A stretch of DNA of 64,000 bases from Microbulbifer sp. YPW16 (lineage in GTDB: Bacteria > Pseudomonadota > Gammaproteobacteria > Pseudomonadales > Cellvibrionaceae). Every line of letters begins with the position of its first letter. Positions within the stretch are counted from its first letter, which is position 1. A program made the translations under genes and the position numbers. The stretch lies in NCBI RefSeq assembly GCF_021290385.1, contig NZ_CP089928.1, positions 1,906,501-1,970,500 on the forward strand, written 5' to 3'. The notes beneath the pieces are model-generated. The model was not told where the DNA came from. It did not search any database and saw only the letters and a list, made by a program, of their open reading frames with translations. Positions 1 to 14,427 of this stretch are shown here, piece by piece.

Positions 1-548
1 ACCTCATTCGCATCCCTGACGGCGGCGGCCATATCGAAGTCATCCATTCTAATAAGGGAAAGATAACCACGGAGCTTATTACTAGGGGCTTTAACGAGCA
101 GCTCTTCCGCCTGGGTAATGGCATCTTTCTTCCTGCCCAGGTTGTGCAGGCTTGAAACAAGGTAGAAGCCAAGGTCGGGTAAATCCTGCAACTGGCCCTG
201 CAGCGATTCAAAAGCCAACAGGGCCTCTTCAAATTGCTTTGCGTAAAACTTCGCAAGACCAAGGTTGTACGTGAGGCCTGGATCCTCATCAGCGATTTTT
301 AGTGCATCCTCAAAGTATTTGATGGCTTCTTCAAATTTATGTTCAGAAAGACAGACATTCCCCATCCTGGAATGGTGGATACTGTTCTCGGGCTCCTGCT
401 CAAGTGCCTGGGAAAAATACTTACGCGCTTCCGCCAGGTCCCCCAGCTTGTGATACAGGTCGCCCAGCTGTACACACAGGATGCTATTACCCGGATCCAG
501 CTTCAGGTAGCCGAGATACTGGGAAATTTTTTCGTTTACATTATTCAT
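1..548 (-). CDS. TPR-repeat protein, C-terminus beyond window edge
   Basis: The frame opens at an ATG (548, minus strand) with MNNVNEKISQYL and stays open to the left edge, so the stop codon lies outside the window. About 182 residues are visible. The pattern is degenerate 34-residue TPR helices, with aromatic and Ala/Gly positions such as LGDLYHKLGDLAEARKYF followed by a second unit ending FEEAIKYFEDALKI and a third with YNLGLAKFYAKQFEEALLAF. No signal peptide is visible, so a cytoplasmic scaffold is likely. It is the last visible gene of a same-strand cluster, six bases downstream of the next TPR gene, which points to co-transcription. Specific function is not recognisable. TPR assignment is by eye; partner and pathway are unknown. 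Confidence 0.75.
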   Translation of the reverse strand, partial: MNNVNEKISQYLGYLKLDPGNSILCVQLGDLYHKLGDLAEARKYFSQALEQEPENSIHHSRMGNVCLSEHKFEEAIKYFEDALKIADEDPGLTYNLGLAKFYAKQFEEALLAFESLQGQLQDLPDLGFYLVSSLHNLGRKKDAITQAEELLVKAPSNKLRGYLSLIRMDDFDMAAAVRDANE

Positions 549-554
549 TTTCGA

Positions 555-1043
555 TTACGGCAGGCGGAAGTTCAGTTCGGCAGCTATCTTCTCTAGCTGC
601 TGGAACAGGGGATGGTTTTTAGGCATGTTCTTGCTACTGGCTTTGAATAGCTCAACCGCTAACTCGCGGTTGCCCAGGTTAATGTGGCTGACGGCACTGT
701 AGAAAGTCGCGGCGTAATCGTCATCTGAATCGACCAGTGGCTTCCATACTTCCAGCGCCGTATGCCAGTCTCGCGCCTGGAAATATGTCATCCCCAACTG
801 AAAGCGGGCCAGTGCATTATCCTGGTTCAGCTTCAAAATCTTCTGAAAATGCGTGCGAGCCTCTTCGATCATGCCCAGCTGTTGGTACGTGGCGGAGAGC
901 ATGCCCAATGCAACTTCATTTGCCGGAAACTCTTCGACAAATTCCTTCAGCAGCGGTAATGCATTTTCGTAGTTCTCTGCTTTTACCAGCGCCAGGATTG
1001 GCTTGAGGCGCTGCCTCTGTTCACTATCGTTGTTCGCAGACAA
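555..1043 (-). CDS. Small TPR-repeat protein
   Basis: This 162-residue soluble protein is built almost wholly of TPR-like helical pairs: PLLKEFVEEFPANEVALGML, then YQQLGMIEEARTHFQKIL, then FQLGMTYFQARDWHTALEVW, then SAVSHINLGNRELAVELF. The first codon is TTG (1043), preceded by a GA-rich stretch (gaagagag) at usable spacing; no in-frame ATG lies near the N-terminus. It sits between another TPR gene (6 bp downstream) and an unknown 119-residue gene (15 bp upstream), all on the minus strand, which argues for one operon. TPR domains bind partner proteins, so an assembly or chaperone role is possible. No partner can be named from sequence. Confidence 0.8.
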   Translation of the reverse strand: MSANNDSEQRQRLKPILALVKAENYENALPLLKEFVEEFPANEVALGMLSATYQQLGMIEEARTHFQKILKLNQDNALARFQLGMTYFQARDWHTALEVWKPLVDSDDDYAATFYSAVSHINLGNRELAVELFKASSKNMPKNHPLFQQLEKIAAELNFRLP

Positions 1044-1058
1044 TCTTCTATACTCTCT

Positions 1059-1418
1059 TCAGGAACCAAGCCGTGCGATGAGGTTGTGCAACGCCTGGCT
1101 GAGGTTTTTATCATTATTGAGATGATGATGAATCCGGGTTACCAGAAGGTTAAATTTTGGCTCATTCCGGACTTTATCGCCGAATTCCCATGCAAGAACG
1201 CTTTCGAGAACGGCCTTTGTTTTCTTCTCCGTATCGCCTGATTCTGCCTCTATCTGTTTCAATCTGGTCTTGAGTTCTTTTTCGAGCTCCGGCAATGACA
1301 CTCTTGCATTGGTCGATGCGGTTTTTTCCCGACCATCTACCTTCGTGTCTCTCTTTTCTGTGGAAACCCTGCTTCGCAATAAGCGTGAGAGCGCACCTAC
1401 GCCATCAATGGGATCCAA
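1059..1418 (-). CDS. Hypothetical 119-residue charged protein in TPR cluster
   Basis: I do not recognise this protein. The N-terminal half is highly charged and likely disordered (many K, R, E, T and S between residues 15 and 45). It is followed by a predicted amphipathic helix (LPELEKELKTRLKQIEAE) and a C-terminal helical part ending HNLIARLGS. It starts with TTG at 1418; a Shine-Dalgarno-like ggagcagg lies directly upstream, which supports that start over internal alternatives. Its start lies 15 bp after the stop of the upstream TPR gene and its stop 15 bp before the next TPR gene. No signal peptide or membrane segment is visible. It could be an adaptor bound by the neighbouring TPR proteins, but that is only inferred from position. 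Confidence 0.65.
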   Translation of the reverse strand: MDPIDGVGALSRLLRSRVSTEKRDTKVDGREKTASTNARVSLPELEKELKTRLKQIEAESGDTEKKTKAVLESVLAWEFGDKVRNEPKFNLLVTRIHHHLNNDKNLSQALHNLIARLGS

Positions 1419-1433
1419 GGTCCTGCTCCAGAT

Positions 1434-2018
1434 TTAGTGCTTCTTGAGGGACTGGCGGTAACCACTGAGGGCAATGTGCGTTCCTGCCCGGGTGGCAGGG
1501 GCTTCGGCCGGTTCCAGGTTAGCGCCCGCAGCCTGGCTCTCCAGTGCCGCCGCAGCTGACTCTATCACCCTGGACATATCGTTATTCAGTGGGGCATTGA
1601 AGTCATTTCTTGCTATGCCCATCTCCAGATGCTTGATACATCCTTCGAAGTCATCCTCGACAAGTGCCAGCATCCCCTGACTGAACAGCCTGAAAGCGTG
1701 GTCTTCAGGCAAACCTGACAGGCCTTCCCAGGTACTTCTCGCCTTTTCCACCTCGCCCGAGGTCAAGTAAAGCAGGCCGAGCTGGAAAACTGCTGTTTTC
1801 TCGCCAGCATCCATATCTATCGCACGCTGCATCCACTCTGCAGCACTATCCACCATCTGGATCTGTGCATACAACGCACCAATCATATAAGTAGCCTTTG
1901 CATGGTTTGGATCTGATTCAACACAGCGCTTGAACAGGTCCAGGGACTTTTCCACGTCGTCGGACTCCAGGGAATGTAGGCCGAGGTGAAATAGCTCATC
2001 GGATGTGAGTTGGCTCAT
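1434..2018 (-). CDS. TPR-repeat protein
   Basis: This 194-residue protein starts at an ATG (2018) and carries at least three consecutive TPR units (LFHLGLHSLESDDVEKSLDL, then ATYMIGALYAQIQMVDSAAE, then AVFQLGLLYLTSGEVEKA), followed by a looser helical segment and an Ala-rich tail (about residues 150-180). No export signal is visible. It is the first TPR gene of the minus-strand cluster; the lipoprotein gene upstream ends 34 bp before its start, so the lipoprotein and the TPR genes may share a transcript. The role is unknown; the arrangement of several small TPR proteins in a row suggests subunits or chaperones of one larger assembly. Confidence 0.8.
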   Translation of the reverse strand: MSQLTSDELFHLGLHSLESDDVEKSLDLFKRCVESDPNHAKATYMIGALYAQIQMVDSAAEWMQRAIDMDAGEKTAVFQLGLLYLTSGEVEKARSTWEGLSGLPEDHAFRLFSQGMLALVEDDFEGCIKHLEMGIARNDFNAPLNNDMSRVIESAAAALESQAAGANLEPAEAPATRAGTHIALSGYRQSLKKH

Positions 2019-2052
2019 TGCAGTATCCCAATTGAAACTTGCAGGCGAATGC

Positions 2053-2388
2053 TTAATCGAAGTGGATCAAACCTGATTCCACACCATCTATTGTTAATTC
2101 GCAGTGTGAATTTCGGTTGCTAAAGAAATTTCCGCTATGGCAGAAGGCCGTCAGCTTTGCCCCCATATAACGACCATGCAGAGTCGTTGTTCGGGCACAC
2201 CAACCGCCATTTCCGGCCATTACTGGTTGCCCATCAATAAAAATCTGGAGATGTCGCGTGACTGGAGAGAATTGCCCCTCAACCACCCAGGGGGTTCGAG
2301 TATAGAAAGCTGGCTGGACCACACTTGTGGGTGTAGTAATGGAACAAGCTGAGCACAGCAAGAGCGCGCAAAGAACTGCGTACCGCAT
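2053..2388 (-). CDS. Small predicted lipoprotein
   Basis: This 111-residue protein begins MRYAVLCALLLCSACS, a classic short lipoprotein signal with a lipobox-like LCSAC, so it should be exported and lipid-anchored at Cys15. The mature part is short and contains four further cysteines, with a beta-rich look (RTPWVVEGQF, HLQIFIDGQPVMAGNGGW). It resembles small periplasmic lipoproteins that bind a partner complex, but no family is recognised. It is the most upstream gene of the TPR cluster on the minus strand and probably the first gene of that operon. About 345 bp of non-coding DNA separates it from the duplicated segment further upstream. Confidence 0.75.
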   Translation of the reverse strand: MRYAVLCALLLCSACSITTPTSVVQPAFYTRTPWVVEGQFSPVTRHLQIFIDGQPVMAGNGGWCARTTTLHGRYMGAKLTAFCHSGNFFSNRNSHCELTIDGVESGLIHFD

Positions 2389-2733
2389 AGACTTCTAATT
2401 CCCCAAAAGCACCAAACCCGCCACTTCTATTTTTTTAAGGGTCGCGGACCGGCGAAATAATAAAGAAAATTTGACCCAATGTAACCCTGCAGACGGAACA
2501 GCGTCACACTTTTTCTGCTTACAACTAAATCTTTTTCACCCCGGTACAATTTTTAGACAGTTTCTGATTTGGTATCGGTGAGCCCCCAAGATGTAAGAGC
2601 GTGTAATTGCCGTAATTAGTTTTACATGGTATAGGAGCTCACCCCCGGTTATTAACCGAATATATTTTATTTGATGGAGCTTGCCGTAAACGCATTTATT
2701 TCTGGCAAATGGATAAATAGATATCGGTATTGC
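2389..2733. other. AT-rich non-coding stretch upstream of TPR cluster
   Basis: No convincing gene is seen. The base composition is AT-rich and contains a T-run near 2432-2438 and a short 7-bp inverted repeat (ggtgagc near 2577 and gctcacc near 2637). It probably holds the promoter of the minus-strand lipoprotein/TPR operon, but no clear -10/-35 pair could be assigned. Its right edge coincides with the start of the 621-bp direct repeat. Confidence 0.4.
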
Positions 2734-2918
2734 TGCTATTGCCGTTCGCACATGGTATCCGGCACTGATAAGAGTGGTGTGATATTTAGCCAGGCATGTG
2801 TATCGAGCAAGGTGAAGGGTAGCCGGTACCGTAACAGGAAGAGAAAAGAGACCGAGAGACGGAAGATAGGGGCGAAGGAGGCCGTGACGAATCCTTGGAT
2901 CGCTTTCTAGCCGGCGCC

Positions 2919-2960
2919 CCCTAACAACCAGCAGAAATAGCCGGCAGCTTCTTGTTAGGG
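2919..2960. repeat. Inverted repeat CCCTAACAA/TTGTTAGGG (also at 7512-7553)
   Basis: Perfect 9-bp arms are separated by 24 bases just downstream of the acyltransferase stop codon, and the structure is present in both copies of the long repeat. There is no T-run, so it is a poor intrinsic terminator on either strand. It may be an RNA stem-loop or a recombination structure. The arms loosely recall the outer ends of integron attC sites (TAAC...GTTA), but the inner boxes of an attC site are not visible. Confidence 0.5.
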
Positions 2961-3002
2961 CCCCCACCGCGGGGAGTCAGGCCCGGTAGCGGGCCCGGCA
3001 GT

Positions 3003-3354
3003 TCAGGAAAGCGCTGCAAGTCTTGTGCGCAAGTAGTTGATATCAAATGCCATCAGGGTCTTCTTGAAGCCCAGCGCTGGCTTTTCAACCAGGTTCCAGG
3101 AAGCATAGGCCAACCCGAAAACCAGAGGGGTAGCAACGAGTGTATGTGTATAGGGATTCAGTCCCGGGAAGAACTGCGCAATTATTTGCTGGACGGGCCA
3201 AGCATAAATATAAACACCATACGAGACATCACCCAAGGAGTTATCAATATTTATATGTTTCACGCCATAGGCCAGAAAGAAAATAGCGTAAGCGAAAAAC
3301 ACGGGGAATACGTATGCAAACCATGCCTCGCCGAAAGAAGCGTATATGATTATG
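3003..3354 (-). pseudogene. Truncated 3' fragment of acyltransferase gene
   Basis: The minus-strand frame encodes the last ~117 residues of the intact acyltransferase at 7596-8690, including FLAYGVKHINIDNSLGDVSY and the C-terminus ending YLRTRLAALS. Homology stops sharply at 3354, where the long direct repeat ends and the sequence changes to the AraC-flanking DNA. An internal ATG at 3302 could in theory start a 99-residue peptide, but this would be only the last few transmembrane helices and is very unlikely to function. It is best read as a by-product of the duplication. Confidence 0.85.
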
Positions 3355-3434
3355 TCAAATTTTCAGACAACTATAGTATGCATGCCTTCCTTTTCTCCAC
3401 CCACCCACTTCTACGTGTAAAAAAATATAAATAT

Positions 3435-4469
3435 CTAGTCCGATGAGAGGGGAGCTTCTTTTGATTTAGATTTCATATAATCCTCGACTTTCCCGCCAGT
3501 CCACCGCCTGAATGCTTTCGAGAAAGAACTTGCGTCTGAATACCCGAGCATTTCAGCAACATAGGAGGAACTGGAATAACCAAGGTCCAGGATTTTCTGG
3601 GTCTCACTCAACAAGAAAAGATCCTTTAACATAGAAAAGGATGTATCTTCGGACTGTAACTTTCTCTTTAGTGTGGCAACACTTAAGTTTAGCTCTTGAG
3701 ATACAGCATCAACTCTAGCCATGGCTGGGTGCTTATAACCCTCAAGAATTCTGAGAACTCTGTCACTATAGGTCTTGTGATTCAAGGATTCCAGGGATCG
3801 ATTTGCAATATTTGTAAAGAGCTCAAAAAGATCCTTTTGCGGGTTATGCACAGGAAGATCCAACACCCTGGCTGAAATGACGAAATAGTCTTCAGCTTGA
3901 GAGCCATACACTGGACAGCGAAAGTAGTCGGAATATAAATCTTCAAGGCCCTCTATATCGCGAGAGAACCCTACGCGAATAATCCCTATATCTTCGGAGT
4001 AAAGATTGTTTGTCAGGAAGTTAGCGATCTTAGCAAACTGCGAAAATAGCTTGAGAAATACGTGGTGCCAGTCAAACTCTACATCCAGTTTTTTTGCAGA
4101 AAGAGAAACCTTTACTTCCGACCCATTAATGACTGATGTCAAAAGAAAGCAATCCGACATCAGCCTGTCGTACATCACTGCACTTTTCAAGGCAAGACCG
4201 AGATTTTCTGAGTGCATCGAAATTAGCCCAGGCACACCAAGGTCAGATATGTGTACATGCTCTCCAATCTTGCAGGGCAACAGCGGGTCACCACTATTGG
4301 CCATCAGCTTTTTCCAGATACCAATGTAATCAAAAATTGAAACATACCCCGGACGAACCTCCCGTATCTTGTAGGAGCCGATAAAGCTGGCGTAGGTATG
4401 GTTCTGATCAATTCGATTGGCGCTTCTAATCAATGCTTCCACTTTGATCCGGGAAATAACGTTATCCAT
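3435..4469 (-). CDS. AraC-family transcriptional regulator
   Basis: This 344-residue protein has an N-terminal ligand-sensing or dimerisation region of the kind found in OruR/ArgR-like AraC proteins (about residues 20-210) and a C-terminal double helix-turn-helix (about 245-335). The first HTH contains VSQELNLSVATLKRKLQ; the second contains VAEMLGYSDASSFSKAFRRW, which matches the AraC family signature closely. The family binds DNA and usually activates a nearby operon. It is divergent from the metalloprotease-like lipoprotein gene at 4788, with 318 bp between start codons, so that gene is the most likely target. It lies inside the segment bounded by the 621-bp repeats and is AT-richer than the core genome. 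Confidence 0.92.
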   Translation of the reverse strand: MDNVISRIKVEALIRSANRIDQNHTYASFIGSYKIREVRPGYVSIFDYIGIWKKLMANSGDPLLPCKIGEHVHISDLGVPGLISMHSENLGLALKSAVMYDRLMSDCFLLTSVINGSEVKVSLSAKKLDVEFDWHHVFLKLFSQFAKIANFLTNNLYSEDIGIIRVGFSRDIEGLEDLYSDYFRCPVYGSQAEDYFVISARVLDLPVHNPQKDLFELFTNIANRSLESLNHKTYSDRVLRILEGYKHPAMARVDAVSQELNLSVATLKRKLQSEDTSFSMLKDLFLLSETQKILDLGYSSSSYVAEMLGYSDASSFSKAFRRWTGGKVEDYMKSKSKEAPLSSD

Positions 4470-4787
4470 TTATTGACCTATGAGATCCATTTCACATTTA
4501 TAGCCACCTCTAAAGTACGCATTTTAATGTGTCCACTGAAATCACAAAGCTCCACCCTTGTCATATCGGCTCATTATCGCTGTCATAAAGGATAAATGTC
4601 GTCTAGATCACAAGTCGGCATCCCCTGGCCACTTAGAGTGCATTCCTGCTTAGTAATTTTCAGCCCTGCACGAAACTAGGCAATTGTTGCCAGGTCCTTT
4701 CCTGGGTGGCAACTATCACTTAGATGGTGAAACCACAATCTAATACTTTCATTCAGTTTGGACTTTTGACCCCATAAAGAGAAAGAT
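4470..4787. promoter_or_regulatory. Divergent intergenic region, regulator/lipoprotein
   Basis: These 318 bp separate the AraC-type regulator (minus) from the lipoprotein gene (plus) and should contain both promoters and the regulator's operators. No gene is visible. The stretch is AT-rich. A purine-rich agagaaagat precedes the lipoprotein ATG and can act as its ribosome binding site. No operator repeats could be assigned with confidence by eye. Confidence 0.5.
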
Positions 4788-6647
4788 ATGAATATTAAAA
4801 TTTTAATTATCCTTTGTTCGCTTCTACTTGTAGCGTGTAAAGATGACGCGAAGCGGGAGGTCGACGAGCCTGCCCCTGTAGCCTCCGAGGACGAGACCCC
4901 TTCAGAAGACGAGACCCCTTCAGAGGAGGAGCCCCCTTCAGAGGATGTAGTTGACGAGGAGGTAGTTGACGAGGCCGATGGCACAGCCCCTCCATCCAGT
5001 GACATTCCCCCAGAAGTAGATGTCACTACTAACTCCGAAGAATTTTGGCTGAATTTCGACTGTGGGGAAAATTGCCAGAGTGCCAATCTGAGCTCGGACT
5101 TCAGCAAGTCGACATATGCCCAGACTGAGCTGTCCATGAAGCCTTCAAGTTTGGACTCGATTGTTGTGACCCAGGTCAGCAGTGAGGAAGTCATCTCAAA
5201 TATCGAGACTAGATACCTTGCAAATGACATCCGGGTTGAACCCCTCGGCAATGGACTGATATCGATTACTAACAATACATCAAGGCGCTTTTCATCCATT
5301 CTTGTCATGCATACGACGAATGCTGGATCTGCTCCGCTGAAGATTGTATTTGATAGCACGCTGAATGGCTTCTCCAGTACAACTTACTCCGGTGTTCCAG
5401 ACGGCAATCTGCAGTATGTAGAAACCGCGCCAATGCTTAATCTCGACATTTCTTATAGGGGAAAGGTTGCAAGTTGTGATGAGCCGAGAACTGGAGATAC
5501 CGCTTGGCACTGCTTGCGGCATCCAACTCCAGCAGAAGCGGATACCCTGAAGGCTCTTTCGGCAAATATTAAATGGTTTATGAACACCTATCACTTCACA
5601 GAGGCTCTCGACGCTTTCGCTTTCGGGGGGGAATATATGGGATATTCGGTAGGACGCCCCTGCAACGAATGGGAGGGGTGCGTAGCCACCCGTTCCCCCA
5701 GCGAATCCATCATGTATTACCTCTTTAGCCTGGCTTCCAGTGGCCAACGGTCGGATATATCGACAATGGAGGTCTATAAGAAAGGATGGGTAGGCTTAGG
5801 CGGTGGAAAGACCCCGAGCCAGTTTTGGGGGACGGGTCGCTCCGGCTTTTTGAGCTTGCGATATCTTGACAGCCTGACCAAGGGTAACTATAGAACCTAT
5901 ATGCACGAACTTGGCCATTCATTAGGTTTCAGCCATAAAACTGGATTTACTTATGGCTTCCCACACTACGCCACGGATCATGTCGTTGACCTGCTTGGTT
6001 TCACCCAAACCGTGGAGAGCGTACCACCTGAGGTAATTCTTACAAAAGGCTGGCGCGATGGTAATTTATACGTGAAGGTCTACTCTTCTGACGATCCCAC
6101 CGATGGAAAAATGAAGCTCCAGGGCCTCAGCCTGACAGCCTTCGACGCGACAGCGTACGTATCTGAAGATGGTAGCACCATAAAGATCGAATTTTCAGAG
6201 CCACCCAAGCAGCGCCTCCTTGTTCGAGTATTTTCTGGAGAATCTGATCTAGTAATGACTAAGGATGTTGCACCAGGGATGCTGATTTTGGATCATAGAT
6301 CCACTGAAGACTTGCTGGTTATAAACGATAACACCTTCAACGAAATCATTGCTAAAGAAAGTTTACTGAGATCTAGAATTGACAAGTCTCCTCGTAAGCT
6401 CAATACGCTTTGCACAGGGCTATTTCGCCAGGGTGATAGCTTGGTCATTCCCAGTGCAGACATGTTGACAATGCTATCAGGGGATTCCTATTATCACGAC
6501 AACTTCAAGGGTGAACCCTTCTACTCCAAGGGAGGTGCAGACAATAGCACCCCCGGTACGTTTAATTTCGAGACTCTGGTTTTTGCTCAGGCTCCAAATC
6601 GGGAACCGCTTGCCACTATTAACCTAGGCTGTAAGACCTCAAATTAA
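4788..6647 (+). CDS. Lipoprotein with metzincin-like zinc protease motif
   Basis: The 619-residue protein begins with a lipoprotein signal (lipobox LVAC, Cys17). It continues into a Glu/Asp/Ser/Pro-rich linker (about residues 20-70) that contains a tandem repeat of EDETPS, and then a large extracytoplasmic body. Residues 373-383 read HELGHSLGFSH, a full HExxHxxGxxH zinc-binding motif as in metzincin proteases, with three His ligands and the catalytic Glu. A Met-turn further on is not obvious. Upstream of the motif lies a Gly-rich GWVGLGGG segment. The family could not be named; an M66-like or other secreted-protease relationship is possible. The product is probably a surface or periplasmic protease. 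It is divergent from an AraC regulator and followed by an intrinsic terminator, so it appears monocistronic. Confidence 0.85.
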   Translation: MNIKILIILCSLLLVACKDDAKREVDEPAPVASEDETPSEDETPSEEEPPSEDVVDEEVVDEADGTAPPSSDIPPEVDVTTNSEEFWLNFDCGENCQSANLSSDFSKSTYAQTELSMKPSSLDSIVVTQVSSEEVISNIETRYLANDIRVEPLGNGLISITNNTSRRFSSILVMHTTNAGSAPLKIVFDSTLNGFSSTTYSGVPDGNLQYVETAPMLNLDISYRGKVASCDEPRTGDTAWHCLRHPTPAEADTLKALSANIKWFMNTYHFTEALDAFAFGGEYMGYSVGRPCNEWEGCVATRSPSESIMYYLFSLASSGQRSDISTMEVYKKGWVGLGGGKTPSQFWGTGRSGFLSLRYLDSLTKGNYRTYMHELGHSLGFSHKTGFTYGFPHYATDHVVDLLGFTQTVESVPPEVILTKGWRDGNLYVKVYSSDDPTDGKMKLQGLSLTAFDATAYVSEDGSTIKIEFSEPPKQRLLVRVFSGESDLVMTKDVAPGMLILDHRSTEDLLVINDNTFNEIIAKESLLRSRIDKSPRKLNTLCTGLFRQGDSLVIPSADMLTMLSGDSYYHDNFKGEPFYSKGGADNSTPGTFNFETLVFAQAPNREPLATINLGCKTSN

Positions 6648-6682
6648 GAAAGAGATCCTCACAGGATAAGTAGTTACTTAAT

Positions 6683-6705
6683 GCCCCCGTATGGGGGCTT
6701 TTTTT
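6683..6705 (+). terminator. Intrinsic terminator after metalloprotease-like gene
   Basis: A gccccc/gggggc stem with a four-base loop is followed by seven T residues, 35 bp after the stop codon of the lipoprotein gene. This is a textbook Rho-independent terminator on the plus strand and marks the 3' end of that transcript. Confidence 0.85.
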
Positions 6706-6792
6706 CATTCAGGAAAGAATTTTTATGTTTTGGCCTACTAATCCCGGACACCGGTCTAGGTGTTAGAGTTGCACCTTGCACAAAGGTGTTCA

Positions 6793-7319
6793 ATGAGAAG
6801 ACAGCAGCGATTCCTCTCTACGCAGTTCATGCGAGATGCCGTGCGTTTGGTCGTGGATCAGGGGTGCTCATTATCCGGGGCGGCCCACTCTTCGGGTAAC
6901 TTGCCGCATGGGCTGCCGGTCTGAAGCTCCGCTGACTTGCAACCAGCCCGACCGTCCAATATACAAAGAGCCAAGGGTAGAGCGACCAGATATCCCAAAC
7001 ACGCTTGACGCCAATTCAAAGTGGAAAAGCGGAACCAGGTTTGGCGTGGTGATATTACCTACATCCTGGGCGACTCAGCTGGTTCTGCCCTGCTATGATT
7101 AGCGAGCCTTATCCTCGTCGCAGGGTCTGGCCGGGCGAGCTAAGAGTATCCAGATTAAGCACTCACAGTAGAGGCACTGGAAGTCACTTGGAGCAGTGAT
7201 GCAAACCGAATAGTGTCATGTTCCACCAGGACCAGGTCAGTCAGTATAGTCGCTGCGTATTCCGGCTGAGATTATGGTGCTACAGGATGACACAGGGTAT
7301 GAGTCACCCCTGGAACTAA
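6793..7319 (+). mobile_element. Decayed IS3-family insertion sequence remnant
   Basis: Translation in shifting frames gives pieces of an IS3-family transposase. From 6793, a fragment resembling the OrfA start contains RDAVRLVVDQGCSLSGAA and stops at 6922. From about 6950, OrfB pieces follow: VERPDIPNT, then after a frame change RQFKVEKRNQVWRGDITYI, the conserved start of the DDE integrase core. From 7218, FHQDQVSQYS and LWCYRMTQGMS correspond to the FHSDQGSQY...YRMTQSMSRRG block. Most of OrfA and the early part of OrfB are missing, and there are in-frame stops, so it is inactive. The remnant ends at 7319, eight bases before the right 621-bp repeat, suggesting the repeat junction cut it. Confidence 0.85.
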
Positions 7320-7326
7320 TAGTGGA

Positions 7327-7947
7327 TGCTATTGCCGTTCGCACATGGTATCCGGCACTGATAAGAGTGGTGTGATATTTAGCCAGGCATGTGTATCGAG
7401 CAAGGTGAAGGGTAGCCGGTACCGTAACAGGAAGAGAAAAGAGACCGAGAGACGGAAGATAGGGGCGAAGGAGGCCGTGACGAATCCTTGGATCGCTTTC
7501 TAGCCGGCGACCCCTAACAACCAGCAGAAATAGCCGGCAGCTTCTTGTTAGGGCCCCCACCGCGGGGAGTCAGGCCCGGTAGCGGGCCCGGCAGTTCAGG
7601 AAAGCGCTGCAAGTCTTGTACGCAAGTAGTTGATATCAAATGCCATCAGGGTCTTCTTGAAGCCCAGCGCTGGCTTTTCAACCAGGTTCCAGGAAGCATA
7701 GGCCAACCCGAAAACCAGAGGGGTAGCAACGAGTGTATGTGTATAGGGATTCAGTCCCGGGAAGAACTGCGCAATTATTTGCTGGACGGGCCAAGCATAA
7801 ATATAAACACCATACGAGACATCACCCAAGGAGTTATCAATATTTATATGTTTCACGCCATAGGCCAGAAAGAAAATAGCGTAGGCGAAAAACACGGGGA
7901 ATACGTATGCAAACCATGCCTCGCCGAAAGAAGCGTATATGATTATG
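7327..7947. repeat. 621-bp direct repeat, right copy
   Basis: This is the partner of 2734-3354, in the same orientation with three mismatches. Here the repeat continues without a break into the rest of the acyltransferase gene, so this copy is joined to the intact gene. On its left it abuts the IS3-family remnant. The two copies bound about 3972 bp of intervening DNA. Confidence 0.95.
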
Positions 7948-8690
7948 AAGGATAGAATGGCGAGCTTCCCGTCCATGGGGATATCTTCTCGATTATGGTA
8001 AAAGAGAACCCCTACCAGGAAATACAGGCTCGGCCGCGACCATTTATCGTTGATTCCCAGCAGTGGGATATCGCTGAAATGGTAATAGCCGAAAGCCAAT
8101 ATCCCTGCAATGCTCAGGTTGGCCAAAAGCCGGTTTCTCAGCAACCCCCAGAAGCCGAAAACTGCCAGGATGATATAGCAGTACGCCTCTACAGTAAGCG
8201 TCCAGAGAGACCCATTGATGGCACCCCGGCGGTTTTCTTCGAAAACGCCCGGTAACGTCCATTCCATACGGAATACTACCAATGCGTTTCTAAGATATTC
8301 CAGGGTAGCCGGATTCTGGATGTACTCTCCCAACGGCAGTGTTGTCAGGAGTGGACCTAACACAAATACTGAAGCGACAACGCAGACCATTAGCGCAGGC
8401 AGAATTCGGATTGCACGCGAGATAACGTAATCCTTTACTCCACGGTTTTGCAGACTGGCACAAACCAGGAAACCGCTGATAACAAAAAAACCGTTGACTG
8501 CAAATTCACCAATCCAGGCCGATCCCTGGAAGATTGCATTCAGTGGGTTTTTCATGCCATGGGTTGGCTGGATTGGGAAACTGTGACCGAAAAGGACCAG
8601 CCACGCAAATACCAGCCGGATCAGCGTGAAATTATTGTTGCGATTCCCATCAAAATCCTGAAGTGAAATCACCTGTGATGACGTATGCAT
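7596..8690 (-). CDS. Acyltransferase family 3 (OafA/NodX-type) membrane protein
   Basis: The protein is predicted as a 364-residue multi-pass inner membrane acyltransferase of the Acyl_transf_3 family, which transfers acetyl or similar groups to surface sugars or lipids. Visible features are the N-terminal RLVFAWLVLFGHSF with its conserved His, the AVNGFFVISGFLV segment with the typical FFVISGF signature, an arginine-containing RAIRILPAL helix, and roughly ten hydrophobic helices. A longer frame begins at 8807, but the ATG at 8690 is preceded by ggag at good spacing, and the upstream residues overlap the parE 3' end, so 8690 is preferred. It follows parE on the same strand. Its 3' part is duplicated at 3003-3354. 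Confidence 0.88.
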   Translation of the reverse strand: MHTSSQVISLQDFDGNRNNNFTLIRLVFAWLVLFGHSFPIQPTHGMKNPLNAIFQGSAWIGEFAVNGFFVISGFLVCASLQNRGVKDYVISRAIRILPALMVCVVASVFVLGPLLTTLPLGEYIQNPATLEYLRNALVVFRMEWTLPGVFEENRRGAINGSLWTLTVEAYCYIILAVFGFWGLLRNRLLANLSIAGILAFGYYHFSDIPLLGINDKWSRPSLYFLVGVLFYHNREDIPMDGKLAILSFIIIYASFGEAWFAYVFPVFFAYAIFFLAYGVKHINIDNSLGDVSYGVYIYAWPVQQIIAQFFPGLNPYTHTLVATPLVFGLAYASWNLVEKPALGFKKTLMAFDINYLRTRLAALS

Positions 8691-8764
8691 TGCTTCTCCA
8701 TGCCGCCCTGAATCCAATCTCCTCCTGCGCCAAGGGCAGGAATTACCAACCCGGAGCGACCCCG

Positions 8765-10654
8765 TCAGCTTACGACTTCGGCCAGGTTCCCCTTGCTTTC
8801 CAGCCACTGCTTACGGTCTCCCGCACGCTTCTTGGCCAGCAGCATATCCATCACCTGGTTGCTGTCATCACCGTCTTCCACATAGAGCTGCACCAGGCGG
8901 CGGGTATCCGGGTCCATGGTGGTTTCACGCAATTGCAACGGGTTCATTTCCCCCAGGCCCTTGAACCGGGTTACCTGCACCTTGCCCTTTTTCTTTTCGG
9001 CGCTGATGCGATCGAGAATGCCCTGCTTCTCCGCCTCGTCCAGTGCGTAATAGGTATCCTTGCCGATATCGACCCGGTAGAGCGGCGGCATGGCGACAAA
9101 TACATGGCCGTTCTTTACCAGCGGGCGGAAGTGGCGCAGGAACAGGGCGCAGAGTAGTGTGGCGATGTGCAGGCCATCCGAGTCAGCGTCCGCCAGGATA
9201 CAGATCTTGTTGTAGCGCAGGCCGTCCAGGTTGTCGCTGCTGGGGTCCACCCCCAGGGCCACGGCAATATCGTGTACTTCCTGGTTGGAAAAGATCTCCC
9301 CGGAGTCCACCTCCCAGGTATTCAGGATCTTGCCGCGCAGCGGCATGATGGCCTGGAAGTCGCGGTCGCGGGCCTGCTTGGCGGAACCACCGGCGGAGTC
9401 GCCCTCCACCAGGAACAGTTCGGAGCGGCTGGTATCACCACTGGCACAGTCCGCCAGCTTGCCGGGCAGGGCCGGCCCCTGGGTGACTTTCTTGCGTGCC
9501 ACTTTCTTGGCCGAACGCAGTCGCTTCTGGGCATTGCCGATGCACAACTCCGCCAGCCGGTCGCCCTCTTCGGTATGCTGGTTCAGCCACAGGCTGAAGG
9601 CATCCTTGGCCACGCCGGAAACAAACGCGGTGGCCTCGCGCGAGGACAACCGCTCCTTGGTCTGGCCGGAGAACTGTGGATCCGCCAGTTTGGCGGACAA
9701 CACATACGAGCACTGCGCCCAGATATCCTCGGGCCCCAGCTTGACCCCGCGCGGTACCAGGTTACGGATCTCGCAGTACTCGCGCATCGCTTCCAGCAGG
9801 CCGGAGCGCAGGCCGTTCACATGTGTGCCGCCCTGGGCAGTGGGAATCAGGTTGACGTACGACTCGGCGGTGACCTCGCCGCCCTCGGGCAACCACTGCA
9901 CCGCCCAGTCTGCGGCTTCGGTGGAGGCACTGAAGCTGCCCACGAATGGCTCTGCCGGCAGTACTTCCCAGCCCTGGTTGGCGGCCGCCAGGTAATCCTT
10001 GAGGCCGTCCTCGTAAAACCACTGGTCCGACTCGCCATCCTGCTCGTTGATAAAGACCACGGTCAGGCCCGGGCATAGCACTGCCTTGGCGCGCAGCAGG
10101 TGGCGCAGGCGCGGCACCGAGAACTTCGGGGAGTCAAAATACTGCGGGTCCGGCATAAAGCGCAGGCTGGTACCGGTGGTGCGCTTGCCACAGGTGCCGA
10201 TCACCTCCAGGTCCGAGGCCTTGTTGCCGTTCTGGAAGCCCATCCTGTGTACCTGCCCATCCCGCTGGATGGTGATCTCCAGGACTTTGGAAAGAGCGTT
10301 CACCACCGACACGCCCACACCGTGCAGGCCACCGGAGAACTGGTAATTCTTGTTGGAGAACTTACCGCCGGCATGGAGCGTGGAGAGGATGACCTCAACA
10401 CCGGGGCGGCCCTGCTCCGGATGGATATCCACCGGCATGCCGCGCCCGTCGTCGCTGACGGACAGGGAGTTATCCTTGTGCAGGACCACTTCGATTTTCT
10501 TCGCATGCCCGGCCAGCGCCTCATCGACGCTGTTATCGATCACTTCCTGGGCCAGGTGGTTGGGGCGTGTGGTATCGGTATACATCCCCGGGCGCTTGCG
10601 CACCGGGTCCAGCCCCGTGAGTACCTCGATATCTTCTGCGGAATACTTGGCCAT
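8765..10654 (-). CDS. parE: DNA topoisomerase IV subunit B
   Basis: ParE is the ATPase subunit of topoisomerase IV, which decatenates daughter chromosomes together with ParC. The 629 residues match the usual length of about 630. The N-terminal GHKL ATPase carries IDNSVDEAL, DDGRGMP and the GGLHGVGVSVVNALS lid. The TOPRIM region carries LVEGDSAGG (about residue 415), PLRGKILN and ILADADSDG with the acidic metal ligands. The C-terminus has VTRFKGLGEMNP. The lack of the large insertion typical of gammaproteobacterial GyrB supports ParE. It is the last core gene of the nudF-yqiB-cpdA-yqiA-parE block, an order also known in E. coli. Confidence 0.97.
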   Translation of the reverse strand: MAKYSAEDIEVLTGLDPVRKRPGMYTDTTRPNHLAQEVIDNSVDEALAGHAKKIEVVLHKDNSLSVSDDGRGMPVDIHPEQGRPGVEVILSTLHAGGKFSNKNYQFSGGLHGVGVSVVNALSKVLEITIQRDGQVHRMGFQNGNKASDLEVIGTCGKRTTGTSLRFMPDPQYFDSPKFSVPRLRHLLRAKAVLCPGLTVVFINEQDGESDQWFYEDGLKDYLAAANQGWEVLPAEPFVGSFSASTEAADWAVQWLPEGGEVTAESYVNLIPTAQGGTHVNGLRSGLLEAMREYCEIRNLVPRGVKLGPEDIWAQCSYVLSAKLADPQFSGQTKERLSSREATAFVSGVAKDAFSLWLNQHTEEGDRLAELCIGNAQKRLRSAKKVARKKVTQGPALPGKLADCASGDTSRSELFLVEGDSAGGSAKQARDRDFQAIMPLRGKILNTWEVDSGEIFSNQEVHDIAVALGVDPSSDNLDGLRYNKICILADADSDGLHIATLLCALFLRHFRPLVKNGHVFVAMPPLYRVDIGKDTYYALDEAEKQGILDRISAEKKKGKVQVTRFKGLGEMNPLQLRETTMDPDTRRLVQLYVEDGDDSNQVMDMLLAKKRAGDRKQWLESKGNLAEVVS

Positions 10655-10689
10655 ATTTTTATTGGTTACTCGTTAACAACTATTGTCCC

Positions 10690-10710
10690 GTAGGAGCGGC
10701 CGCGAGCCGC
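10690..10710. repeat. REP-like palindrome
   Basis: The sequence GTAGGAGCGGC followed by cgcga and GCCGC contains a GCGGC/GCCGC stem and starts with the GTAGGAGCGG word common in Pseudomonas-type REP elements. It lies between yqiA and parE. Only one copy is seen in the window, so the assignment is tentative. Confidence 0.35.
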
Positions 10711-10729
10711 AGCCGGCAATCTGCCGTGC

Positions 10730-11338
10730 CTACCGGCCGAAAAGGAATTCGACAATGGGCTCACAATACTGCTCAAAGCCCTGGAAGCTGTGGTCCCCGC
10801 CTTCTTCAACGGTCTGGCGCTGCCCGCGATAGAAACCCTCCGCCTCGCGGCAGTCCAGAGTCTCGTCGCCGCGCTGCGCGAGCAGCCAGTAGCGCCCCCT
10901 GAACGCCCCTTGCAGCTCCGCCTCCAGACTGCGCATGTTAGCAACGTCGGCACCACTTAGGCGATACTCGTGCGGCTCACCGCTGTACGGCGCCAGTGGC
11001 TGCCCCACATAGGCGGGCATAAAACGGGCCGGGTGTACCGCCGGATTCACAACCACCGCGGGCAGCCCGTGGCGCTCGGCCAGCAGGGTCGCATAGAAGC
11101 CACCCATGGAGCTTCCGACCAGGCCGATGCTTGCGCCACGGTTCTGGTCCAGGATTTCCTCCAGTGCCGCGGAGGCAAGCGCCGGGTGCGGGGAGATCAG
11201 CGGGGCACGAAAGCTCATGTGAGGCCTGTGCCGCGCCACCCACTCCTCCATCAGGCGACACTTATACGACTGCGGGGAGGAGAGGAAACCGTGCAGGTAC
11301 AGTAATAGCGAATGATTTTTTTGCGGAAGTTCTGACAT
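10730..11338 (-). CDS. yqiA: YqiA-type alpha/beta-hydrolase esterase
   Basis: This 202-residue protein of the UPF0227/YqiA family is a small cytoplasmic alpha/beta-hydrolase with esterase activity. The nucleophile elbow is GSSMGG with Ser77. The oxyanion strand near the start reads YLHGFLSSP, and the likely catalytic His is in GGDHSFQGF near residue 182. The length agrees with the E. coli protein (about 193). It sits 75 bp upstream of parE on the same strand, in the conserved position between cpdA and parE, but here an additional lipoprotein gene separates it from cpdA. The natural substrate is not known. Confidence 0.92.
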   Translation of the reverse strand: MSELPQKNHSLLLYLHGFLSSPQSYKCRLMEEWVARHRPHMSFRAPLISPHPALASAALEEILDQNRGASIGLVGSSMGGFYATLLAERHGLPAVVVNPAVHPARFMPAYVGQPLAPYSGEPHEYRLSGADVANMRSLEAELQGAFRGRYWLLAQRGDETLDCREAEGFYRGQRQTVEEGGDHSFQGFEQYCEPIVEFLFGR

Positions 11339-11406
11339 GGGCGGGGATTATAGCGCCCTTCTACGGCAGGGCGAGTCCGCGAGTAATCTGCGGACCGCCC
11401 GGGGGA

Positions 11407-12129
11407 TCACCGCAGCGACCGGTCCAGGCTGGAGAAGGCACGGCGCATATCCACCCGCATGTCGGCCCAGAAGATGGGGCCACTGAACTGTTGCAGCTGG
11501 CCTCCCGAAGCCAGTGAGCCGGGATTCTCGCCGATATCCCGCCGGTCCCGGAACCGCATGACCAGGTTGCCATCGCGGTCGTACAGCTCACCGGCCAGCA
11601 CGCCATAGGCACTCTGCTCCGTGAATGTTCGCCGGCTCCAGGTTGGCGCCTCCAGCGGGGCGCTCAGGGCGAAATTCTCTAGACGCAACTGCAGCCGGTA
11701 ATCCGCCTGTGCCGGGCTGCCCGCCAAACGACTGTTGCGCGGCTGCAGGAAGCGCTCGGCAAGCGCCTCCTCCATCAATTGCTGCATTCGTTCACGCTCC
11801 CGCGCATCCAGCTGGAAGTCACCGGCATTCAGCCGCTCACGGACATCGGCACTGCGCTTGCGGTAGCCAATCTGCAATGGCGCCACGTAGACACTGGCAT
11901 TAGCCAGGTCGAAGGCAAAAGCGGCGGCGACACTGTCGAGCCCGCTGGCCCGCGGCTGCAACCCCGTGGCGGAAGCCGCCCCGGGGTTGGCAACAGCCAA
12001 TGCCGACCCGGAGGGATCGGTCTGCGCACACCCCGCCACGACCAGGACGAGGGCTCCCAGCCAGGCACTCGATAACATTTGCATCATGGCTCCCACTGCT
12101 TTCTGTTTCCGGTTCGGTGCTTTGGTCAT
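11407..12129 (-). CDS. Predicted lipoprotein, DUF3313-like
   Basis: The 240-residue frame has a lipoprotein signal with lipobox VVAGC. The region ahead of it is unusually long if the first ATG (12129) is used; ATGs at 12087/12084 follow a gggag and give a normal signal, so those starts are more likely. The mature protein has a helical ARERERMQQLMEEALAERF segment followed by beta-strand repeats (YRLQLRLENFALS, YGVLAGELYDRDGNLVMRF). This layout is typical of DUF3313-like outer membrane lipoproteins of unknown function; the family name is a tentative match. It is inserted between yqiA and cpdA, a place with no gene in the E. coli order. Confidence 0.7.
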   Translation of the reverse strand: MTKAPNRKQKAVGAMMQMLSSAWLGALVLVVAGCAQTDPSGSALAVANPGAASATGLQPRASGLDSVAAAFAFDLANASVYVAPLQIGYRKRSADVRERLNAGDFQLDARERERMQQLMEEALAERFLQPRNSRLAGSPAQADYRLQLRLENFALSAPLEAPTWSRRTFTEQSAYGVLAGELYDRDGNLVMRFRDRRDIGENPGSLASGGQLQQFSGPIFWADMRVDMRRAFSSLDRSLR

Positions 12130-12292
12130 TTGTTTCTACAGGCCTCTGCCTGGACCTCGGCTTGGGCCCAAGGGGTACCCGGCCGGCCCGGGTCCCAATA
12201 CCGGCATTGTAGGGTGACAGGCAGCGGATACGACAGGGAGCGGGGAAAGGCCGGACCAACGGATTGGCAGGACTGGCTCCTGTGCCGGACGG

Positions 12293-13117
12293 TCAGTATC
12301 CGGAGGAAGTGAGGTCGACGTTGTAGTCAGAAACCGGGACACGCTCGACAGCGGTGGTGTAGGTGCCGCTGTCGTCGAGGTCGAACCAGCGGTAACCCGG
12401 CAGCTTGTCATCCACAGCGAAGGGACCACTGCCCGGTGTGAATTGCACCGAGGTGGAGGGGGTAGCATGCAGGCCAATACCGTTCAGGTCGCCGTCAAAC
12501 TGCTGGTGTACATGACCCCAGACCAGGGCCTTCACATTACCTGCCGCGGACACCAGTTGAAGGAAGCGCTCGGCGCCTTCCTTGAGCATATGGCCATCAA
12601 TCCACTTGCTGCCCACCGGCACGGGTTGGTGATGCATCAGTACCATCACCGGGTGATGGCGGCACTCCTGCAACAGCTCGTCGAGACGATCGAGCTGGGC
12701 TTCGGTCATGCCGCCGCAGATCTCGCCCTCGACACTGGTATCCAGTAGCAACAGCCGCCAGTTGCCCAGGGCCACCAGCTCGGCGGTATTGCCCGGGGCC
12801 ACCTCATGCATTCGCTCGGCCTGGTCATGGTTGCCTGGCAACCAGAACCAGGGCGCGCTGACCTTGCGCATTTTGTGCAGGAAACGCTCGTAGGCCGCCT
12901 CGGCACCATTGGCGCTGATGTCGCCGGTGGCCAGCAGCATTTCAGCTGTCGACTGGTCCCGCTCGATGGCTCGCAGCACATCATCCAGGGTACGACCGGT
13001 ATCCAGCCCCAGGAGCTGGTAGTCCGGTCGCCCCCCGATATGGGGATCTGTAAACTGCACCAACCGGTGTTTCGATCCGCTCAACTTGTCCTGCCTGCTT
13101 CCGTCGCTTCCACTCAC
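12293..13117 (-). CDS. cpdA: 3',5'-cyclic-AMP phosphodiesterase
   Basis: CpdA hydrolyses cAMP to AMP and so tunes CRP-dependent regulation in the cytoplasm. The 274 residues carry the complete metallophosphoesterase ligand set in order: D24 and H26 (TDPHIGG), GD at 65-66 (TGDISANG), GNHD at 95-98, a His pair at 162-163 (MHHQPV) and GHVH at 201-204. The start is GTG at 13117; the first ~15 residues are polar, as in other CpdA proteins. It lies 44 bp after yqiB on the same strand, in the nudF-yqiB-cpdA order known from E. coli. Confidence 0.95.
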   Translation of the reverse strand: MSGSDGSRQDKLSGSKHRLVQFTDPHIGGRPDYQLLGLDTGRTLDDVLRAIERDQSTAEMLLATGDISANGAEAAYERFLHKMRKVSAPWFWLPGNHDQAERMHEVAPGNTAELVALGNWRLLLLDTSVEGEICGGMTEAQLDRLDELLQECRHHPVMVLMHHQPVPVGSKWIDGHMLKEGAERFLQLVSAAGNVKALVWGHVHQQFDGDLNGIGLHATPSTSVQFTPGSGPFAVDDKLPGYRWFDLDDSGTYTTAVERVPVSDYNVDLTSSGY

Positions 13118-13161
13118 TTGCTTACCCTGTCACCACATCCATGTGACCACCGACAGCGGCG

Positions 13162-13668
13162 TCAGAGCTGTCGGCCATCTAAAACCAGTTCAAAATCCAC
13201 CCGGCCATTCGCGAGGCAATGCCCCAGCCACTCCCCCAGGAAGCGGTTGGCCTGCTGTCGTTCGTCGGCCCCCTGCATGCGGGCCCCCGCGTGCAGCACA
13301 CCCGGGGCTTTCTCACCCAGGGGACCGCGGCCGTCCACCGCGACCACCTCGGCCATGCGCGCGTCGTGGTAGAGCCGCACCGTAATCCTGGGCGGCGCCA
13401 TCCAGCGCTGCTCGCTGGCGGAAGACGCGCTCAGGCTCACCTCGGTGGTGTAACGGGAGCGCTCGATCACCTCCAGCTCCAGGGAGCCGTGGGGCATGCT
13501 GTACCTCCAGCGCTCCCGCTCACCCAGCTGCGGCAACAGCTTGCTCAGGCGCAGGTAGTTGGCATCGCAGTCGGCGTGATAAGCCGGCAAGTCCATCCGA
13601 TATTCCGATTTTTGACGACTTTTCAGTCGCAATTTGCTTCCAGGATGGGCCTGTTTCTGAACCGCCAT
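13162..13668 (-). CDS. yqiB: YqiB-type DUF1249 protein
   Basis: This 168-residue cytoplasmic protein of the DUF1249 family is encoded between nudF and cpdA, as E. coli yqiB is. Characteristic parts are YHADCDANYLRLSKLLPQL near the N-terminus, a beta-rich middle (LELEVIERSRYTTEVSL, ITVRLYHDARMAEV), and the C-terminal helix QANRFLGEWLGHCL. A GTG at 13692 would add eight residues, but the ATG at 13668 is preceded by ggag eight bases away and is the better start. The biochemical role is unknown. Confidence 0.9.
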   Translation of the reverse strand: MAVQKQAHPGSKLRLKSRQKSEYRMDLPAYHADCDANYLRLSKLLPQLGERERWRYSMPHGSLELEVIERSRYTTEVSLSASSASEQRWMAPPRITVRLYHDARMAEVVAVDGRGPLGEKAPGVLHAGARMQGADERQQANRFLGEWLGHCLANGRVDFELVLDGRQL

Positions 13669-13755
13669 TATCGACACTCCAATTCTATCCACGCCGTGAC
13701 TTGGATCTCAGTTTGCGGTCCTTCTCGGTAAACGCAGGATATATACGATGACCCG

Positions 13756-14427
13756 TTAACCATGGGTCGCCCCTTTTCTGCCCGTCAGTCGCTCACGATG
13801 CAACTGCAGCCACTGCAGGCAGATCAGCGTGGCCGCGTTGTCCACCGCGCCGGCGTCGGGCGAGTCCCCGGCCAGGGCCGCCAGCAGGGTATCCAGCGGC
13901 AGGACCCGCAGGCGGATATCCTCCTGCTCTTCCGGCAACCCGAAGATGCCCCCTGCCCCACCCAGGTCGACACAGCCACAGAACAGGTGCAGGCGTTCCG
14001 AGCTGCCGCCGGGGCTCGGCAAATAGCTGTGGATTGGTTCCAGCCGGCCGACCTCCAGCCCGGACTCCTCCTGCACCTCGCGACGGGCGACCTCTTCGAG
14101 GCTCTCCCCCCGCTCCACCATGCCCGCCACCACTTCCAGGCACCAGGGACCGTAGGGCCGCTCCAGGGCTCCCACCCGGAACTGCTCGATCAGGCCCACC
14201 TGCTCGCGCCGGGGATCGAATAACAGCACGCCCACGGCGTTGTCGCGGACGAACAGCTCGCGGGTAAAGATCTCGCTCCACCCCCCGCGGAACAACCGGT
14301 GACGCAGGCGCAGGCGCAGCATCTTGAAGAAACCGTCAAAGACGGTTTCACGCTCGACCACCTCGACCGCATCGGTGGAGAACTCGGGGACAAGATCGGT
14401 ATTTCTCTCCCTGGTGGTTTCGGTCAT
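13756..14427 (-). CDS. nudF: ADP-ribose pyrophosphatase (Nudix hydrolase)
   Basis: This 223-residue Nudix enzyme probably splits ADP-ribose into AMP and ribose 5-phosphate. The Nudix box runs from about residue 102 to 124 (G102, E108, then REVQEESG), with all catalytic glutamates present. The preceding LEVVAG and VGLIEQFRVGALERP segments are typical of the ADP-ribose pyrophosphatase subgroup, as is the C-terminal LPEEQEDIRLRVLPLD. It is the first gene of the nudF-yqiB-cpdA-yqiA-parE block. A strong GC-rich hairpin just upstream separates it from the DUF4136 genes, so it may have its own promoter. Confidence 0.95.
   Translation of the reverse strand: MTETTRERNTDLVPEFSTDAVEVVERETVFDGFFKMLRLRLRHRLFRGGWSEIFTRELFVRDNAVGVLLFDPRREQVGLIEQFRVGALERPYGPWCLEVVAGMVERGESLEEVARREVQEESGLEVGRLEPIHSYLPSPGGSSERLHLFCGCVDLGGAGGIFGLPEEQEDIRLRVLPLDTLLAALAGDSPDAGAVDNAATLICLQWLQLHRERLTGRKGATHG

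Follow-up and report, generated by a model that had tools for sequence, protein, structure and literature searches.

A 4-kb accessory segment flanked by 621-bp direct repeats on the 3′ side of parE in Microbulbifer sp. YPW16

In Campbell-type, or insertion-duplication, integration a circle enters the chromosome by a single homologous crossover. In transformation, homology-facilitated illegitimate recombination combines one homologous anchor with one illegitimate end (PMC5361080), and in Streptococcus pneumoniae merodiploids carrying duplications arise when a short donor fragment recombines with repeats (PMC3784515). Clusters of integron repeats situated away from the core integron have been described as satellite cassette sites in the marine bacterium Saccharophagus degradans 2-40 (PMC2386152). 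Here we describe a locus on the 3′ side of parE in the marine Microbulbifer sp. YPW16 in which an accessory segment of about 4 kb, or island, is framed by two near-identical direct repeats (R1 and R2, jointly R), each holding the same end of an acyltransferase gene. The stretch of DNA analysed (hereafter, the window) comprises 64,000 nucleotides of contig NZ_CP089928.1, and positions are given in window coordinates.

Alignment of R1 with R2 revealed 621 bp in each copy, with three substitutions (2917/7510, 3027/7620 and 3291/7884), no insertions or deletions, and an abrupt end on both sides. Near-identity over such a length is not a product of chance. A first-pass annotation of the sequence had recorded two 621-bp copies with three differences and abrupt ends, and the alignment confirms its positions exactly. 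It had also placed the acyltransferase 3′ end in each copy, with the intact gene at the right and a fragment at the left, which is borne out by a PF01757 match and agreement of the reading frames. The AraC regulator, protease-like lipoprotein and decayed insertion sequence (IS) of the IS3 family that it had listed between the repeats are likewise found there, as judged by Pfam, a motif and IS alignment, respectively. The observation is real and well described; it is ordinary in kind and informative in its setting. The features of the locus are as follows.

2053-2388, minus strand: small lipoprotein gene of the left flank
2734-3354, no strand assigned: R1, left direct repeat; 269 bp of spacer and the 3′-terminal 352 bp of the acyltransferase gene, 99.5% identical to R2
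2782-2796, plus strand: 15-mer in the R1 spacer, found at 7375-7389 in R2
3003-3354, minus strand: acyltransferase 3′ fragment of about 117 codons, 5′ part missing
3355-7326, no strand assigned: 3,972-bp accessory segment enclosed by the repeats
3435-4469, minus strand: AraC-family regulator, frame intact
4788-6647, plus strand: lipoprotein, putative metalloprotease, frame intact
6726-7320, plus strand: decayed element, presumably of the IS3 family
7327-7947, no strand assigned: R2, right direct repeat; content as in R1, running on into the intact acyltransferase gene
7514-7550, minus strand: weak attC-like hairpin in R2, with a second copy at 2921-2957 in R1
7596-8690 (5′ end approximate), minus strand: intact acyltransferase gene
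8765-10654, minus strand: parE, whose 3′ side is an insertion hotspot in the genus

The genome is assembled as one contig of 4,194,587 bp, rated 100% complete, and a search of its whole length found exactly two copies of the repeat, R1 and R2. Comparisons were made within a set of 48 Microbulbifer genomes including this one; the 47 relatives, none of which belongs to the same species, carry no near-identical copy. Two of the three differences between the copies fall in the coding half and are both synonymous (CGC/CGT and GCT/GCC), and the third lies in the spacer. The fragment in R1 matches residues 287-403 of the intact gene's frame at 100%, with a PF01757 score below the cut-off. The intact gene encodes a protein of about 364 residues from an ATG at 8690 and matches PF01757 (Acyl_transf_3) with an E value of 8e-24; a longer form starting from a GTG at 8807 is unlikely, and the four nearest homologues among those listed measure 364-367 residues. 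Outside this genome, an acyltransferase match with E below 1e-100 was returned only for G019, on a contig other than that of its parE, and weaker matches for G032, G026 and G014. Strains of the same species, sought through acyltransferase homologues, were not found: the nearest among the 120 proteins listed is 85% identical and comes from contigs of at most 2.7 kb.

The place of R in the chromosome is indicated by one relative in particular. G026, whose ParE is 99% identical to that of YPW16, is the only one of the 47 with the same left neighbours at parE, namely two TPR genes, a 119-residue open reading frame (ORF) and the small lipoprotein gene (87% identity), and DNA homology extends from 17 to 2673. 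About 0.7 kb separate the last detectable left-flank homology from parE in G026, and this interval holds no acyltransferase, AraC or protease gene. G047, which is about as close as G026 by parE DNA (90% each), has other neighbours at parE and no island genes there. The earlier description of the island as accessory is thereby supported, by a syntenic spacer without it and by the presence of full-length protease relatives in only three of the 48 genomes; the acyltransferase is an accessory gene too, the sole relative with shared left neighbours lacking it at this locus. The spacer half of R continues the homology of the left flank to G026. Local alignment of the two spacers scored 32, above the highest value of 28 reached by 300 shuffles, and global alignments gave p values of 0.006 and 0.012, whereas the control sequences left of R2 (p 0.60) and right of R1 (p 0.42) do not align. 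The 15-mer in the spacer, with one mismatch allowed, occurs in YPW16 only in R1 and R2 and in G026 once, at the orthologous place; among the parE loci of the 47 relatives, that of G026 alone has an exact copy. These comparisons support the non-coding half of the repeat being native beside the left flank. Because the spacer half continues the left flank and the coding half continues the intact gene, the ancestral chromosome probably read left flank, R, acyltransferase, parE, an order to which the event would have added the island and one copy of R.

A candidate homology of 3372-3393, right of R1, to the parE-proximal spacer of G026 (p 0.010) was set aside as not significant after correction for 34 shuffle tests (17 targets by two query stretches). 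Other low p values, from the stretch between the protease gene and the IS (lowest 0.004), reflect terminator-like hairpins with T runs.

The accessory segment has a G+C content of 46.9%, compared with 62.3% for parE. More broadly, G+C is 47-51% in window stretches on the 3′ side of parE (1-8690) and 62-63% in parE and the rest (8765-64000). The AraC-family protein (PF12625, PF12833) has partners behind parE in G028 (66% identity) and G011 (61%). Divergent from its gene is that of the lipoprotein, a protein of 619 residues with the sequence HELGHSLGFSH, an instance of the HExxHxxGxxH pattern that we take to be a metzincin-type zinc motif; HELGHxxGxxH is kept in all five aligned proteins. The lipoprotein has no Pfam, NCBIfam or PDB sequence match, and its structure model (mean predicted local distance difference test score 33.8) is too low in confidence for use or for a fold search. 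Homologues of 60-66% identity are encoded in G028 and G011, G024 and G036 giving short N-terminal matches only. The gene is single-copy in YPW16. The protein family is rare, two more members emerging when 5.8 billion sequences were searched (7,986 candidates scored), and a wider contig collection, from which records very close to the window may be missing, contains one locus with a relative, in M. elongatus. Against plasmid proteins, one weak match was obtained in Vibrio (24% identity over 43%). In G011, itself M. elongatus, three tandem HExxHxxGxxH lipoprotein genes (about 72-75% DNA identity) stand next to an AraC gene (L027:6990-13293), with one attC site after the third copy.

The IS remnant, whose family name we assume from resemblance, was aligned to 1.24-kb copies whose limits were established in G041 and to related copies from G005 and G006, and shows 65-76% identity by segment. 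Its outer left end is kept, an internal deletion is present, and the last 230 bp or so are missing at R2, the remnant stopping about 6 bp before the repeat. It is the only match of its kind in the genome, and a search for the lost 3′ part elsewhere in the chromosome returned only a 29-bp match (C1:3202313). Since the repeats are only 0.5% diverged, decay of the IS probably predates the duplication, unless the repeats have been homogenised by gene conversion, and the IS is then probably not the agent. The arrangement also differs from a composite transposon in that a single decayed IS lies inside, its right end is missing, and the duplication at the borders spans 621 bp. Among the 11 ORFs of 3355-7326, Pfam recognised no integrase or other mobility gene; only the AraC protein matched, and nine of the ORFs are small or antisense. 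No tRNA gene is present in 1-14000, which is not decisive, as gene 3′ ends can also be targets. Near-match DNA searches of the repeats and island against plasmids, and distant-match DNA searches of the island, and of R2 with the acyltransferase gene, against phages, returned no match.

A second case of the same anatomy, at the same locus and with another gene, is seen in G042 (L100:11110-16783). There the 3′ part of an mmsB-like gene (PF03446, PF14833) recurs about 220 bp behind parE, over 296 bp at 90%, with some 4.5 kb of accessory genes between this fragment and the intact gene. One of these encodes a 328-residue protein with no Pfam match, which by its motif we presume to resemble REP-associated transposases. 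G020 (L101) provides an unoccupied counterpart, its mmsB-like gene lying about 170 bp from parE, once in the stretch read and with no insert. In G008 (L104), where the search covered the locus, an mmsB-like fragment is all that is present there. Across these 296 bp of G042, identity is 90.2% between the two copies, and 84.1 and 83.8% for their respective comparisons with G020. Being nearer each other than to G020, they indicate a duplication that is either lineage-specific or from a close donor.

The reading that we favour, with moderate confidence, is passive, additive integration through homology at R, from a strain carrying another allele of the locus. We infer the donor, the order of events and the kind of DNA entry as follows. 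The recipient would have had the order left flank, R, intact acyltransferase, parE. The incoming DNA was most likely another hotspot allele, in which the end of the acyltransferase gene was fused to the AraC/protease module and the dead IS3 element. Either a circle made up of R and the island may have integrated by one crossover at R, or a linear piece may have joined by homology in the left flank and R and illegitimately at the border between IS3 and R2 (7326/7327). By both routes the acyltransferase would be kept intact and the module added. The cut in the IS beside R2, at about 7320-7326, is consistent with an illegitimate join; the insertion looks fairly recent; and the single-copy state of the protease gene argues against copy-paste from elsewhere in the same chromosome with the source kept. 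The synonymous nature of the coding differences is as expected of two alleles under selection, a weak indication given only two events. The anatomy in G042 and the insert-free site in G020 also count towards additive integration. The proposal in the first-pass annotation that an insertion duplicated the end of the acyltransferase gene is supported, the repeat being native on the left and continuing into the intact gene on the right; as to the two routes it named, a circle crossover or a segmental duplication, the 47 relatives single out neither.

Several points weigh against additive integration. Neither a donor allele nor an empty site nor a circle came to light with the 47 relatives available, none of the same species; the empty site with one repeat that the earlier annotation had suggested looking for was found in none of them, an unoccupied counterpart existing only for G042, in G020. 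Each of the three genomes with the AraC/protease module carries it on the 3′ side of parE, so that it may have been a resident there and not an import. Relative to parE, the module here is turned the opposite way from that in G028, where it sits behind a cassette cluster, and from that in G011, an arrangement predicted by neither view. The duplication could be older than it looks if gene conversion has acted between the copies. For an additive product to join back to the left edge of R, a sister chromosome or a circle is required, and such an outcome is rarer than replacement. Finally, local duplication explains the closeness of the G042 copies to each other as well as a close donor does.

The main rival, which we consider possible though rather unlikely, is accordingly one of rearrangement in place, with the module resident beside parE and a local duplication or a template switch in repair copying the 621 bp and re-setting the module, with no incoming DNA. 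The constant position of the module in its three carriers suggests such long residence, and the mutual closeness of the G042 copies is compatible with it. Local repeats are also frequent here: self-match pairs of at least 150 bp occur at five of the 48 parE loci, all on the 3′ side and all direct, comprising the present locus, the paralogous proteases of G011, cassette-array duplications in G025 and G027, and G042. However, G026, with its shared left neighbours, has neither module nor acyltransferase at the locus, and the parE locus of G047 is likewise without them. Moreover, both borders of R look native, so that the module must have moved in between, and no source copy is left.

It is improbable that the island is the relic of a site-specific integrative element that used the acyltransferase 3′ end as attachment site, carried a replacement 3′ end and has since lost its integrase. 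The topology would fit, with a 3′ fragment on one side, the intact gene on the other and direct repeats, and the G042 case is also at a gene 3′ end. The lack of any recognised mobility gene among the island ORFs, of tRNA genes and of plasmid or phage DNA matches in the searches above speaks against it, as does the difference in target gene between the two cases.

Integron attC sites are a further feature of the 3′ side of parE in the genus. Using a covariance model trained on 20 attC sites (from G028, G025, G027 and the integron of YPW16), 38 sites were found at parE loci at E values up to 0.001, in eight of the 48 genomes (G027 and G025, 11 each; G028, 5; G033, 4; G040, 3; G039, 2; G010 and G011, 1 each), five of the eight lying outside the training set. 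Every one of the 38 lies on the 3′ side and on the parE strand, with none on the 5′ side; the flanks examined in the 47 relatives amount to 418 kb and 384 kb for the 3′ and 5′ sides, and are uneven (only about 0.3 kb on the 3′ side in G019 and 0.1 kb on the 5′ side in G015). Integron integrases over the family cut-off occur in 42 of the 48 genomes. YPW16 has two such genes (C1:20785-21726 and 2076920-2077849), far from the window locus, with three strong and one weak attC sites near the first and one strong site near the second in the stretches read. Among the papers listed in literature searches, none deals with Microbulbifer integrons or parE in its title or abstract opening. Tentatively, and with some doubt, we propose that the 3′ side of parE may be a genus-wide docking site, to which DNA would be added by integron cassettes and by repeated additive insertions, as here and in G042, each duplicating some hundreds of base pairs at the end of a neighbouring gene, the target gene surviving.

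Within the window no significant attC site was detected, the model with default filters giving no match up to an E value of 1. With filters off, in a scan of 2000-64000, the best scores were 12.4 bits (E 0.083) in 2000-9000 and 12.1 bits in 9001-64000. The former is the hairpin in R, and an attC reading of it was not accepted: the model score is weak and not significant for 7 kb, a pattern scan found no attC in the window, and the region folds no better than shuffles (z −0.94). A search of 2300-9000 for structured RNA gave no Rfam match.

An origin of the locus in the integron system itself, with the acyltransferase and module as decayed cassettes of an attC array behind parE and the repeats produced by cassette duplication, is very improbable. 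In its favour, attC sites lie behind parE and on its strand in eight of the 48 genomes, one site follows the third G011 protease, integrases are widespread and present twice in this genome, and the acyltransferase gene is on the parE strand with the attC-like hairpin about 46 nt behind its stop. Yet there is no significant attC site in the window, the repeat ends inside a gene rather than at an attC core site, and the hairpin, at 37 nt, is shorter than any of the 20 sites of the model. Judged from the assembled sequence, a collapsed or mis-joined repeat is scarcely credible, for although repeats are a classical source of mis-joins, the genome is a single contig rated as complete and the copies have three differences and distinct flanks.

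The locus indicates how accessory genes without recognisable mobility machinery can join a chromosome while the gene at their point of entry stays intact, and it marks the 3′ side of parE as a defined hotspot at which such additions may be traced in an environmental genus. In some Microbulbifer species the attC clusters behind parE represent a cassette location away from any integrase seen at the locus, and one that can be surveyed. The element itself is not of a new kind; a specialist might find the hotspot and the G042 example worth pursuing.

Among known systems, the locus can be set beside Campbell-type integration. In both, the foreign part is enclosed by long direct repeats derived from the recipient, and one copy of the gene is whole and the other partial; here near-identical repeats of pre-existing sequence, native at the locus, stand on both sides (621 bp, 99.5%). 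A Campbell insertion is reversible by recombination between its repeats, and excision by recombination between R1 and R2, as the earlier annotation had envisaged, is possible in principle. The island differs in having no recognised vector, replication or mobility genes, and the circle is hypothetical. Homology-facilitated illegitimate recombination, as described for transformation, similarly lets foreign genes enter and leaves an orphan gene part displaced, but there the recipient gene is displaced, whereas here recipient DNA is duplicated with no visible loss (PMC5361080). The merodiploids of S. pneumoniae share duplications bordered by direct repeats; those described are tandem and span about 100-900 kb, with incomplete copies of IS861 at the borders of the first, in contrast to the 4-kb heterologous insert seen here (PMC3784515). 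Although the window itself has no significant attC site, and although parE and topoisomerase IV both go unmentioned in the main text on S. degradans, the attC clusters that follow parE in Microbulbifer resemble the satellite cassette sites of that organism (PMC2386152).

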